IMG/VR virus record: IMGVR_UViG_3300009161_000195
Span: 1 to 26,355 of that record
Length of the DNA stretch: 26,355 nt
Direction: 5' to 3' (one strand)
DNA from: a virus
Positions 7,080 to 13,446 of this stretch are shown here, piece after piece. Both the position numbers and the translations under genes were made by a program. A model generated the notes under the pieces. The model did no database searches and was not told where the DNA came from. It worked only from the letters and a program-made list of their open reading frames with translations. Position 1 is the stretch's first letter. Each line of letters opens with the position of its first letter.

Positions 7080-7487
7080 TCAAAAGGGAATATCGTTGTC
7101 CATGTCTTCAATGGACTTGGCGGCTGGTTTTGCCTCCGCTTTGGCAGGACGGTCGCCCTTGCTGCCAAGCAGCTGCATCGACTCGGCGATGATCTCGGTC
7201 GAGTAGTGATCTACGCCGTCTTTTTGATATTTGCGCGTTTTGAGTCTGCCCTCTACATAGACCGGCGAACCTTTGGCGAGATATTCGGCGGCGATTTCGT
7301 GAAGGCGACCAAAGAATGAAATTCGGTGCCATTCGGTTTCTTCTTTTTTGTCGCCGCTTGTCTTGTCTTTCCACGTGTGTGTGGTCGCCACGGTAATGTT
7401 GGTCACCCCGTTGCCGTCTGGAAAATAGCGGGTTTCTGGATCTTTACCGAGATTGCCAAGGATGATAACTTTATTGACGGATGCCAT
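7080..7487 (-). CDS. ssb: Single-stranded DNA-binding protein
   Basis: 135 residues with all marks of a bacterial-type SSB: N-terminal [25 protein letters not shown], the OB-fold body to about residue 105 ([34 protein letters not shown]), a short disordered linker, and the acidic C-terminal tip DNDIPF used to recruit partner proteins. AAGGG 9 bases before the ATG supports the start. It coats single-stranded DNA during phage replication and recombination, and sits directly downstream of exonuclease and annealase genes as in many phage recombination modules. Confidence 0.95.
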
Positions 7488-7488
7488 G

Positions 7489-8127
7489 TTATTTGCCCTT
7501 CATTTCGTTAAGTTTTTGGACAAGCGTGTCCACTTCGGTTAAAAACTCCATCACTATCTTTTCGTGTTCCTCGATAGCCAAGTCCTTTGCTTTTATCTCG
7601 ACGTGGAATAGTTCCAGACCTACTATGCGAGGATCAAACGAGATGAAGTGCGCAAACTCGGCTCCCGTTACCCAGCAATTATGCGTGATTTGGGGTATGT
7701 ACGCCGGCGGCACGCGCTTTTCCATCATGTAGCGGATATGCGTCTTGGTCTTTGGCGACTTGCTTTCAATCAATCCGAGCGTATCGCCTCGGATAAACCC
7801 ATCGACCGAGCAACCGACCATTATGTCTGGCGAGTAGGCAAACCCGGATTCAACGACCGATATACCGGTTTCCGACTCAAACGCCATTCTGGCAAACGGC
7901 TCTTGCGCCGTACCCCACGCCATTTCCGGCGAGATATAGCCTTGTTCCTCTGGCATACCGGAAAGACGCTCGATTGCCAGTGAAGTACGGTAATCTGCAC
8001 GAGCTGCCGCCTCGCCTGTTTTGATCTTGGCATATAGAGCACTTGCCATAGAGCCGGTAACGCGCCCCGCACGATCCTGCAGCCATTCCGGCGTGCCTTG
8101 ATCGTGCGGGGAGAGGATGTAGTTCAT
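7489..8127 (-). CDS. YqaJ/lambda-Exo type recombination exonuclease
   Basis: 212 residues of the YqaJ viral recombinase family (PD-(D/E)XK fold). The N-terminal [17 protein letters not shown] (10-26) is characteristic. The active site is visible as Glu76 in GTAQEPFAR, Asp109 in CSVDGF, and Glu121/Lys123 in [18 protein letters not shown] (145-154) follows. Family members degrade one strand of double-stranded DNA ends and hand the overhang to an annealing protein. The upstream ERF gene overlaps it by ATGA, so the two probably act as an exonuclease-annealase pair. Length is normal. Confidence 0.9.
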
Positions 8128-8711
8128 ACGTTGCTCTCGTCTGCGTGTTCGGCCGCTTTTTTGTTGTTGGTATGTGCCTCGACTCCGAGGTTAGTGCGCT
8201 GCTCTTTTGTCAGCTTACCGAACCAAGCGGCATAGGACTTCAGACCTTTTAAGGCTTCCTCGCGGCTCTGCTTGAGCAGTTCGGGGTCTGGATCCGCAAC
8301 TACTTTGGCGGGTACGGCGCGAACCGCGGCATTGACATCATCGTCCTCTGGTGCTACTCCGACGGCGGCGCTTAGGCTATACCGACGCGCGTATGTAAGA
8401 GCCGACCCGTAACCTTGTGCATCTGCTTTGCTGACCGGCAACGCCAACACGCCGCAACTAATCCACTCGCCGGAGCTATGTAGGATTGTGGTTTCGACGC
8501 GCACCTCGTCTTTGTCGGAAGGCTCCACAGACTGGACGTAACTAAGACCGTTGGCGGCAAAGGCGCTGCGGATAGCCTCGACCACCGAGGCCAGATCAGC
8601 GTACTTGCTTTTGAAAAACGGATTGGCAGAGTCTTTGACCGCGCCCTTAATTGCACCTTGTGCTTTTGCCAGAGCTGTTGCAAACTCTTTGATGCTGTCG
8701 CTTTTGTTCAT
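8124..8711 (-). CDS. erf: ERF family single-strand annealing protein
   Basis: 195 residues from the ATG at 8711, which follows a GGGGGA and overlaps the stop of the tiny upstream gene. An ATG in the same frame 27 bases further up has no SD. The ERF core is clear: FFKSKYADLASVVEAIRSAF (about 33-52), NGLSYVQSV, and YGSALTYARRYSLSAAVGVA (about 107-126). ERF proteins anneal complementary strands in phage recombination and genome circularisation. The C-terminal third is polar and probably disordered, ending in a small helical part. The coupled exonuclease and SSB genes support the role. Confidence 0.92.
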   Translation of the reverse strand: MNKSDSIKEFATALAKAQGAIKGAVKDSANPFFKSKYADLASVVEAIRSAFAANGLSYVQSVEPSDKDEVRVETTILHSSGEWISCGVLALPVSKADAQGYGSALTYARRYSLSAAVGVAPEDDDVNAAVRAVPAKVVADPDPELLKQSREEALKGLKSYAAWFGKLTKEQRTNLGVEAHTNNKKAAEHADESNV

Positions 8712-8785
8712 TTGTTCCCCCAGATTAAGATTGACCAACAGATAACTGCACCAATGGCGCAGGCATAACTAAGGATGTCACTCAT
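8708..8785 (-). CDS. 25-residue membrane microprotein between two coupled genes
   Basis: The frame begins at an ATG overlapping the upstream stop by 8 bases (ATGAGTGA) and ends in a TGA overlapping the ERF ATG, so it exactly fills the gap. The product MSDILSYACAIGAVICWSIL plus IWGNK is one hydrophobic helix with short polar ends. There is no strong SD, so translation would rely on coupling. It could be only a leader that keeps ribosomes running into ERF, or a real membrane peptide. Its similarity in style to the other tiny membrane genes here favours reality. Confidence 0.45.
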   Translation of the reverse strand: MSDILSYACAIGAVICWSILIWGNK

Positions 8786-11447: not shown

Positions 11448-12125
11448 ATGAATTATTACCAGTTTCACATCGGCGATTATGCGGCCCATACCCGCAATCT
11501 CTCCATATTGGAGGACATCGCATATCGTCGTCTGCTCGATGCTTATTACCTTGCCGAACGTCCGTTAAGCGGATGTTCAACGGACGTTGCACGGCATATT
11601 GGAATGAGCGATCATTTATTGTCTGTTGAGTGGATTCTTTCGGTATTTTTTGAGGTTTGCGACGACGGTTGGCTCAATAAAAGAGCAGATGCAGAGATCG
11701 CCAAGTTCAAAGAAAAACGTGCCAAGGCGTCTATAGCCGGTAGGGCATCTGCTGAAAGTAAAATCAACGGACGTTCAACGGACGTTCAACGGACGTTCAA
11801 CCAACCAAGAACCAAGAACCAAGAACCAATAAAAGACTTGTGCGGTAAACCGCACGCAATAGCGGTTTTGGACTTCCTGAACGTAACGGCAGGAAAGAAC
11901 TTCAAGCCGGTAGGCGCGAATATCAACCTTATCCTTGCGAGAATGAAGGAAGGTTTTACGGATTCAGACTTACGGGAGGTTGTCGAGCGAAAGTGCCGAC
12001 AGTGGAAGGGCGACGAAAAGATGGACGGCTACCTACGGCCGAAAACGCTTTTCAACTCGACCAACTTTGCGCAGTACCAAGGCGAGGCAGACCAAACTAA
12101 AAAATCGAACCGGGAGATCATATGA
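11448..12125 (+). CDS. DUF1376 replication protein with Phg_2220-type C-terminal domain
   Basis: 225 residues. The N-terminal domain (about 1-90: YYQFHIGDYAAHTRNLSILE, AYRRLLDAYYLAERPL) is DUF1376. After a basic linker encoded by short tandem DNA repeats (about residues 100-128), the C-terminal domain (about 138-215: AVLDFLNVTAGKNFKPVGAN, then KMDGYLRPKTLFNSTNFAQY) matches the conserved phage C-terminal domain of replication initiators related to DnaD-like proteins. GGAGG just before the ATG is strong. The primase zinc finger and helicase follow with overlapping starts, so this is probably the initiator that binds the origin and loads the helicase. The iterons in its gene are described separately. 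Confidence 0.8.
   Translation: MNYYQFHIGDYAAHTRNLSILEDIAYRRLLDAYYLAERPLSGCSTDVARHIGMSDHLLSVEWILSVFFEVCDDGWLNKRADAEIAKFKEKRAKASIAGRASAESKINGRSTDVQRTFNQPRTKNQEPIKDLCGKPHAIAVLDFLNVTAGKNFKPVGANINLILARMKEGFTDSDLREVVERKCRQWKGDEKMDGYLRPKTLFNSTNFAQYQGEADQTKKSNREII
11557..11797 (+). repeat. Iterons AACGGACGTT: candidate replication origin
   Basis: Five copies of AACGGACGTT lie inside the DUF1376 gene. One is inverted (AACGTCCGTT, 11557-11566), one direct (within CAACGGACGTT, 11578-11588), and three are exact tandem 11-bp units CAACGGACGTT at 11765-11775, 11776-11786 and 11787-11797. Each copy contains AACG-N2-CGTT, so it is itself nearly palindromic. Iterons inside an initiator gene are the arrangement of lambda O. 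Five copies of a 10-mer in 240 bases is far above chance. Confidence 0.7.
11804..11824 (+). repeat. Three tandem 7-bp repeats ACCAAGA
   Basis: ACCAAGA occurs at 11804-11810, 11811-11817 and 11818-11824, followed by a partial ACCAA. It directly follows the iterons, is A-rich, and encodes the basic, Q/N/P-rich linker of the DUF1376 protein. It may be the unwinding side of the origin or slipped-strand variation. Confidence 0.7.
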
Positions 12126-12541
12126 ACGCCGAGAATTTTCTTTCACGTCTGGACAAGGTCAAGCGCATTGCCCGCGGATGGATTGCTTGCTGTCCTGCTC
12201 ATGACGATACGTCCCCATCCCTTACGGTATCGGAGAGCGCAAACGGCGGCTTGTTGGTCCATTGCTTCGGTGGTTGCGAAGTCGAATCCGTGGTTGGTTC
12301 GTTAGGCTTACGGATGTTCGATCTCATGCCGGATAGCGAAAGAGGCGTGGACCAATCCAGACCATCGAGAATGCCAGCGTCGGACGCTCTGGAGGCGCTA
12401 TCGTTTAACGCCACTATCGTCGTGATCGCCGCTCTGGATATGGCGAAAGGTAAGACGCTATCAGACGCCGATAAGGACGCGCTATTCCGAGCGGCTACAT
12501 CGATCAACGATGGCGTGAACCTGACGAGGCGAAAACAGTGA
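12122..12541 (+). CDS. CHC2-type primase zinc-finger protein without a polymerase domain
   Basis: 139 residues. The N-terminal zinc module of DnaG/T7-type primases is clear: ARGWIACCPAHDDTSPSL (Cys24, His27 of CPAH) and LLVHCFGGCE (Cys48, Cys52), about residues 17-53. The rest is helical with no TOPRIM or polymerase motif. In full primases this module reads the template start site. Here it stands alone and is coupled to a helicase gene (GTGA overlap). It could pair with a host primase or with a catalytic subunit outside the window. The ATG overlaps the DUF1376 stop. Confidence 0.75.
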   Translation: MNAENFLSRLDKVKRIARGWIACCPAHDDTSPSLTVSESANGGLLVHCFGGCEVESVVGSLGLRMFDLMPDSERGVDQSRPSRMPASDALEALSFNATIVVIAALDMAKGKTLSDADKDALFRAATSINDGVNLTRRKQ

Positions 12542-13446
12542 GCCTCCTCGACCGAGCAAGCAGGACGATAAATCGAATCTCGTCAGAGGACATTGACTTT
12601 TCCAAATACCTTACCGAGGACGAAAAGGCGCGGGTCATCTCCTCGGACGACATAGCCGCGATAGGTAAAAAGCAGCTATTGCTTGGCGTAGATCACGAGG
12701 AAGGTCTTGTCCTGCCTTGGGAGAAGTCGCACGATAAGGTCATCATCAGGAGAGGCAAGCTGGCTATCTGGACTGGCTGGTCATTTCACGGTAAGTCGCA
12801 GATGTTAAAGCACGTGATGACGCACGCGCTATCGCTTTCCGAGAAGGTCTGTATTGCCTCTATGGAGGAGGAAATCATTGATGTTTGGAAGGATATGGCG
12901 GTAGCCGCTTGTGGCAAGTCTATGCCGACGGCTATGGCGATTGACGCTTGGACGGCTATGGCAAGCCAAAGGCTTTGGTTTTACGACCAACAGGGCTCGG
13001 TAAAGTCGAACCAGATCAGGGCGGTTATTCGGTATGCCTCGAAGGAATTAGGCGCAACGCAGTTTGTGATCGATTCGCTAATGATGCTTGCCGTTAGCCG
13101 AGATGACTATGACGCGCAGAGCGTGTTTGTTGGCGAACTCAAGACTTTGGCCAAAGATACCGGAGTGACGATTCATCTGGTTGCCCACATGCGCAAGGGA
13201 GAGGGAAAGAAAGGCGAGGCATTTCCGGGTACGATGCACGATATATCCGGAGGACATGAGATCGCATCGAAGGCGGATTATGTCTTCAACGTCTGGCGGG
13301 ATAAGGAAAAGGCAACGCAGCACGCGGCGATCTTGGGAATTGATAAGCAGCGAGGGCGTTTGAATTGGATTGGCGACATAGGGCTTGGATTTGATCCGGA
13401 TTCTAGGCAATACCTTGACGGCTCGGTTACGGTTTATTGCGACTAA
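12538..13446 (+). CDS. DnaB/Twinkle-like replicative helicase ATPase
   Basis: 302 residues with a GTG start overlapping the upstream stop. A RecA-fold ATPase: Walker A GWSFHGKS (80-87), Walker B QFVIDSL (175-181), and IHLVAHMRKGEG (about 212-222) corresponding to the switch/H4-type region of DnaB-family helicases; EEEII near 110 may coordinate magnesium. There is no N-terminal DnaB collar or primase domain, so it is a bare helicase core with a roughly 70-residue leader. It probably unwinds the phage replication fork together with the zinc-finger and DUF1376 proteins. Confidence 0.8.
   Translation: MSLLDRASRTINRISSEDIDFSKYLTEDEKARVISSDDIAAIGKKQLLLGVDHEEGLVLPWEKSHDKVIIRRGKLAIWTGWSFHGKSQMLKHVMTHALSLSEKVCIASMEEEIIDVWKDMAVAACGKSMPTAMAIDAWTAMASQRLWFYDQQGSVKSNQIRAVIRYASKELGATQFVIDSLMMLAVSRDDYDAQSVFVGELKTLAKDTGVTIHLVAHMRKGEGKKGEAFPGTMHDISGGHEIASKADYVFNVWRDKEKATQHAAILGIDKQRGRLNWIGDIGLGFDPDSRQYLDGSVTVYCD

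Follow-up and report, generated by a model that had tools for sequence, protein, structure and literature searches.

The gene at positions 11448-12125 of the virus record IMGVR_UViG_3300009161_000195, which was analysed over its whole length of 26,355 bases (hereafter the window), very probably encodes a replication initiator that carries the phage origin in its own coding DNA. In this joint reading, the iterons of the gene are combined with a heptamer array that would act in DNA opening or helicase loading. The first-pass annotation had read the repeats of this gene as a likely intragenic origin, and the analysis reported here supports it. The candidate origin is best explained as belonging to the same functional class as that of lambda O, in an unrelated initiator family.

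The initiator-like gene and its repeats

The initiator-like gene 11448-12125 (plus strand) codes for a protein of 225 residues made of a DUF1376 N-domain (residues 2-85; PF07120, E 5e-21, 75.3 bits for a gathering score of 30.1), a linker and a Phg_2220_C C-domain (residues 140-210; PF09524, E 2.5e-23, 82.3 bits for a gathering score of 27). The product matched PHROGs families described as 'primosomal protein' and 'replication initiation protein'. Phages and prophages of Gram-negative bacteria often encode DUF1376 (YdaU-type) proteins, which are annotated as unknown or 'primosomal'. Directly downstream, the replication module continues on the plus strand with a CHC2 zinc-finger (DnaG-type) primase-like protein (12122-12541; PF01807, E 1.6e-6) and a DnaB-C/RecA-like helicase-type ATPase (12538-13446; PF03796, E 2e-10; phrog_239, E 2.5e-43). 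A recombination module coding for SSB, a YqaJ exonuclease and an ERF annealing protein is located on the minus strand (7080-8738), divergent from the replication module. The GC skew turns near 9-10 kb of the 26-kb fragment and was rejected as origin evidence because this turn coincides with the switch in gene orientation.

The AlphaFold2 model of the N-domain (pLDDT 89) displayed the order H-H-H-H-E-E-H, corresponding to four helices followed by a wing of two strands and then a long helix. No hit of a Foldseek search with this model reached significance (best E 0.29), winged-helix DNA-binding domains being among the top hits, and a PDB sequence search returned nothing informative for the DUF1376 protein.

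The sequence AACGGACGTT is present in five exact copies in the record, one inverted and four direct, all of them within the DUF1376 gene; these copies, three of which follow each other in 11-bp tandem, had been noticed in the first-pass annotation and were located as follows. Iteron 1 (11557-11566, minus strand) and iteron 2 (11579-11588, plus strand) surround a degenerate iteron, AGCGGATGTT, with two mismatches (11568-11577, plus strand), which is exactly 11 bp from both neighbours. Iterons 3, 4 and 5 (11766-11775, 11777-11786 and 11788-11797, plus strand) constitute the linker array. With the degenerate copy included, the gene contains two three-unit arrays of 11-bp spacing (11557/11568/11579 and 11766/11777/11788), which are 187 bp apart and in register. 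The repeats had all been assigned to the linker-coding part of the gene. This holds for the second array (11766-11797) and for the heptamers; the first array (11557-11588) is situated inside the DUF1376-domain coding part. The iteron sites are near-palindromic and confined to the initiator gene.

On the 3' side of the iterons, four tandem 7-bp CCANNAA units were found at 11805-11832 (plus strand), CCAAGAA being repeated three times and followed by CCAATAA. The three tandem ACCAAGA units reported earlier were recovered at 11804-11824, followed by ACCAATA; what had been missed is that the 7-bp array constitutes a second and more widely shared element. In the window, at least one other stretch of the gene is lower in GC than the heptamers. 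When the gene was submitted to 20,000 synonymous-codon shuffles, AACGGACGTT never reached five copies (maximum 4), and the lag-7 and lag-11 periodicities were each equalled by one of 4,000 synonymous shuffles.

Distribution and anatomy of the repeats in the family

In 14 related virus records, 39 of the 40 copies of AACGGACGTT were grouped in one cluster per genome, which, together with the five clustered copies out of five in the window, rules out a random scatter of this sequence over the genome, the outcome that would have spoken against the first-pass annotation. The largest iteron array was observed at locus L031 (record G001:C1:2642-2739), where eight AACGGACGTT copies are contained in less than 100 bp. 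When 24 kb of the window were compared by megablast with 50,697 phage records, only two of these, both from phiLM21, were matched, and the near-identity was limited to positions 11764-11828, i.e. the repeat block, inside a phiLM21 'primosomal protein' that is also a DUF1376 protein. A blind search with the 19-mer AACGGACGTTCAACGGACG through 2.9 million viral contigs yielded 67 stretches; 57 of them belong to DUF1376 ORFs, just past the domain and always on the coding strand. Among the remaining matches, three at contig edges are readable as DUF1376-type linkers and others fall in the linkers of Lin1244_N or divergent DUF1376-like initiators. At loci L049, L063 and L079, the AACGGACGTTC iterons recur in the linker of initiator-like proteins with a Lin1244_N domain (PF14297), so that two N-domain families share a single iteron type.

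The iterons of the family fall into several sequence classes: AACGGACGTTC and the AAACCCAG, GCAATGCG, CTGAAATCAG, AGCCCCCCTA and ACCTGCAACG types. The heptamer, on the other hand, is common to most iteron classes, with the consensus CCANNAA across the family, in which the phase was set by positions 1-3 and positions 6-7 were not used for phasing. The array accompanies iteron classes A to E, class C having a related form. In each of the 27 genes where both elements are clearly formed, the heptamers are 3' of the iterons, at an offset of about 38 nt. The mean GC content in the family is 0.34 over the heptamer array, with a peak of 0.56 just upstream, for 0.49 over the gene. A scan with a heptamer 17-mer gave, among the matches listed, 122 places, 101 of them within DUF1376 genes; several of the others, again among the matches listed, are low-complexity DNA. 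The layout of iterons and heptamers was also found in named phages, e.g. P19250A, BA3, phiAC-1, CV-1-33 and phiLM21, the heptamer of the latter being the GC-rich AAGCCAG. In Moraxella phage Mcat25, the stop codon of the DUF1376 ORF (L380:1501-1935) is inside the first heptamer (TTCAACCAACCAATAA), which makes the N-domain a separate short protein. In Lactobacillus phage KC5a, orf12 (L383:1210-2118) codes for a Phg_2220_C protein with an HTH_36 N-domain; its linker contains AACACTGATG three times and no heptamers, and it is a possible Gram-positive counterpart.

Autoregulation or control is often a second function of the iterons of plasmid initiators, and the repeats could likewise be an operator or copy-control site through which the protein regulates its own expression or the timing of the phage, the origin being elsewhere. 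The second cluster in the domain-coding part could serve such a control, since in 46 of the 57 class-A homologues the domain DNA as well as the linker DNA contains iterons. We nevertheless consider this unlikely, since the sites are about 110-340 bp inside the gene, away from the promoter, and the adjoining conserved 7-bp array, always 3' and low in GC on family average, is left unexplained. Slightly less likely again is an action of the heptamer array in RNA, as an unstructured A/C-rich segment of Rho- or antitermination type, the iterons remaining a DNA element. The transcript is indeed C-rich and G-poor, with CC every 7 nt, but in all 27 genes with both elements the array adjoins the iterons on a fixed side, and variants such as ACAAGAA, in which the CC pair is lost, still keep the 7-bp period.

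The relation between protein domains and iterons was analysed on the N-domain tree. Iteron class required 23 changes on this tree vs 66.5 with shuffled labels, and C-domain family 26 changes vs 48.3 with shuffled labels. For pairs having 70-79% identical N-domains and different C-domains, the iteron class was shared in 141 of 143 cases. The iteron class tracks the N-terminal and not the C-terminal domain, which fits a recognition of the iterons by the N-domain, although the physical linkage of iteron and N-domain alone could yield part of the co-segregation. Class-specific residues showed no concentration in the predicted recognition helix of the N-domain. The difference of C-terminal domain families within one iteron class shows that exchange has occurred downstream of the iterons, and the tandem repeats might accordingly be viewed as recombination joints for C-terminal domain exchange, with no role as an origin. 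Such a proposal is very improbable: it does not account for sequence-specific 11-bp classes that follow the N-domain, the presence of iterons within N-domain DNA, the fixed order of the elements and the CCANNAA consensus.

Conservation of the repeats as DNA

The periodicity of the repeats was assayed in 160 loci chosen by their N-domain peptide only, and not by repeats, which gave 152 non-redundant DUF1376 genes. The score was the self-match of the DNA at each lag, over a 240-nt segment spanning the end of the domain and the DNA beyond it, compared with shuffles preserving both the protein and the codon usage. Values at least 3 s.d. above the shuffles were obtained in 73 genes at lag 7, 81 at lag 14, 26 at lag 21, 25 at lag 28, 51 at lag 11 and 25 at lag 22, every other lag giving 0-13 of the 152 genes at this threshold. 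No control ORF of the same loci reached it at lags 7 and 11 (0/160). Within the DNA of the DUF1376 domain itself, only lags 11 and 22 were detected (25 and 22 of 152 genes, respectively), because iterons are located there too. In a dereplicated set with N-domains less than 60% identical, 14 of 34 genes exceeded all 100 shuffles at lag 7 and 9 of 34 at lag 11.

The same synonymous-shuffle test was applied to lambda O and to the rep genes of Tuc2009 and TP901-1 as positive controls. In lambda O, the test peaked at codons 112-123, which are the annotated iterons, with lags of 20, 24 and 23, and the rep gene of Tuc2009, whose record is annotated 'contains origin of replication', was detected. The reported intragenic origin of TP901-1 was missed, indicating that the test is less than fully sensitive.

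Codon choice was examined in genes selected on the presence of the peptide N[QH][EKQ]Pxx. At these sites, Asn is encoded by AAC in 83 of 83 cases, Pro by CCA in 82/83, Ile by ATA in 47/47, Leu by TTA in 17/17 and Thr by ACC in 72/75, vs 53%, 32%, 23%, 17% and 32%, respectively, elsewhere in the same genes. The iteron is translated in all three frames. The repeats are thus conserved as DNA, independently of the protein. The first-pass annotation had suggested that homologous DUF1376 genes carry repeats of different sequence under selection at the DNA level, and the several iteron classes, the shuffle test and the codon test bear this out. Selection for a low-complexity linker at the protein level, the DNA having no function, would agree with the presence of repeats in the linker and with the recurrence of the peptides NGRSTDV and NQEPIT, but it is ruled out with near certainty by the synonymous shuffles and the codon test, periodicity exceeding the protein-preserving shuffles in many genes, codons being nearly invariant and the same DNA period being found under different peptides.

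The linker of the DUF1376 gene ydaU of E. coli K-12 Rac (L375:12120-12977) contains degenerate AACAGATGTTC/AACAGGTGTTC units; no heptamer array and, in the periodicity test, no significant 11-bp signal were found in it. Rac has a reported, experimentally known origin, oriJ. Neither the exact position of oriJ nor its mapping to ydaU was found in the literature searched. A link between oriJ and YdaU was therefore dropped as evidence, given the lack of heptamers, of significant periodicity and of a mapping paper.

Comparison with known origins and proposed mechanism

The lambda origin is inside gene O, and the O protein binds four iterons and opens a 40-bp A+T-rich region (PMC5043065). The resemblance to lambda O advanced in the first-pass annotation was recovered in the order of domain, iterons and low-GC stretch, the iterons being at codons 107-117 in the window gene and at about 117-144 in O. 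Both genes carry their own iterons in the segment behind the N-domain, and both are detected by the same shuffle test; the low-GC stretch next to the iterons is seen in DUF1376 genes as a dip of the family mean. They differ in that the lambda iterons are 18-bp inverted repeats spaced by 20-24 bp, whereas those of the window gene are 10-mers spaced by 11 bp, and lambda has plain A+T-rich DNA where the DUF1376 family has the 7-bp CCANNAA array. No Pfam link between lambda O and DUF1376 was found, the only Pfam matches of the window protein being DUF1376 and Phg_2220_C.

The lactococcal replisome organisers ORF13 of TP901-1 and Rep2009 of Tuc2009 bind repeats within their own genes, which are the ori (PMC8965321). 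As proposed for DUF1376, direct repeats inside an initiator gene are the phage origin there; their N- and C-terminal domain families (PF07261/HTH_36, PF06926) and their repeats are different, and no 7-bp array was seen. According to the abstract of a study on phage P1, oriL is inside repL and synonymous changes in the A+T-rich region disrupt it (PMC9948254). That origin is also inside an initiator gene; the protein is different and the abstract reports no iteron array. In iteron plasmids, e.g. RK2, Rep binds the iterons and one strand of the 13-mer repeats of the DUE at once (PMC4081077). Such an origin, like the DUF1376 layout, associates double-stranded iterons with a repeated element in the opening region and offers a model for the heptamers, but it belongs to a plasmid, is non-coding, and has longer iterons and 13-mers instead of 7-mers.

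We infer initiator binding, DNA opening, strand capture and origin activity as follows. The DUF1376 N-domain, predicted to be winged-helix-like, would bind the iterons of both arrays (11557-11588 and 11766-11797), near-palindromic sites with 11-bp spacing that should be exposed roughly along one face of the helix. The initiator-iteron complex would then strain and open the adjoining DNA at the CCANNAA array 11805-11832, one strand of which may be held by the initiator or by the helicase-loading machinery. Loading of the products of the next two genes, the DnaB-like helicase and the primase-like protein, would follow.

The heptamer array is best read as a second origin element, apparently undescribed and more novel than the iterons; in the literature reached, no description of DUF1376 repeats or of a 7-bp array was found. 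A more specific proposal, to which we tentatively give slightly less than an even chance, is that the CCANNAA array is a distinct and widely shared element of DUF1376 phages, acting as a sequence-specific site of single-strand capture or helicase loading on which different initiators have mounted interchangeable, fast-evolving sets of 11-bp iterons. Its role would in that case be analogous to that of DnaA-trios and plasmid 13-mers.

The two-part layout recurs in a large phage gene family, so that hundreds of unannotated genes become testable candidate origins. The common heptamer provides a concrete and mutable candidate for phage origin opening and helicase loading. If the proposal is true, a single protein family with no fewer than six iteron classes would constitute a natural experiment in initiator-iteron specificity, and the name of the gene, its mechanism and the exact position of the origin would be readable from the sequence for hundreds of genomes.
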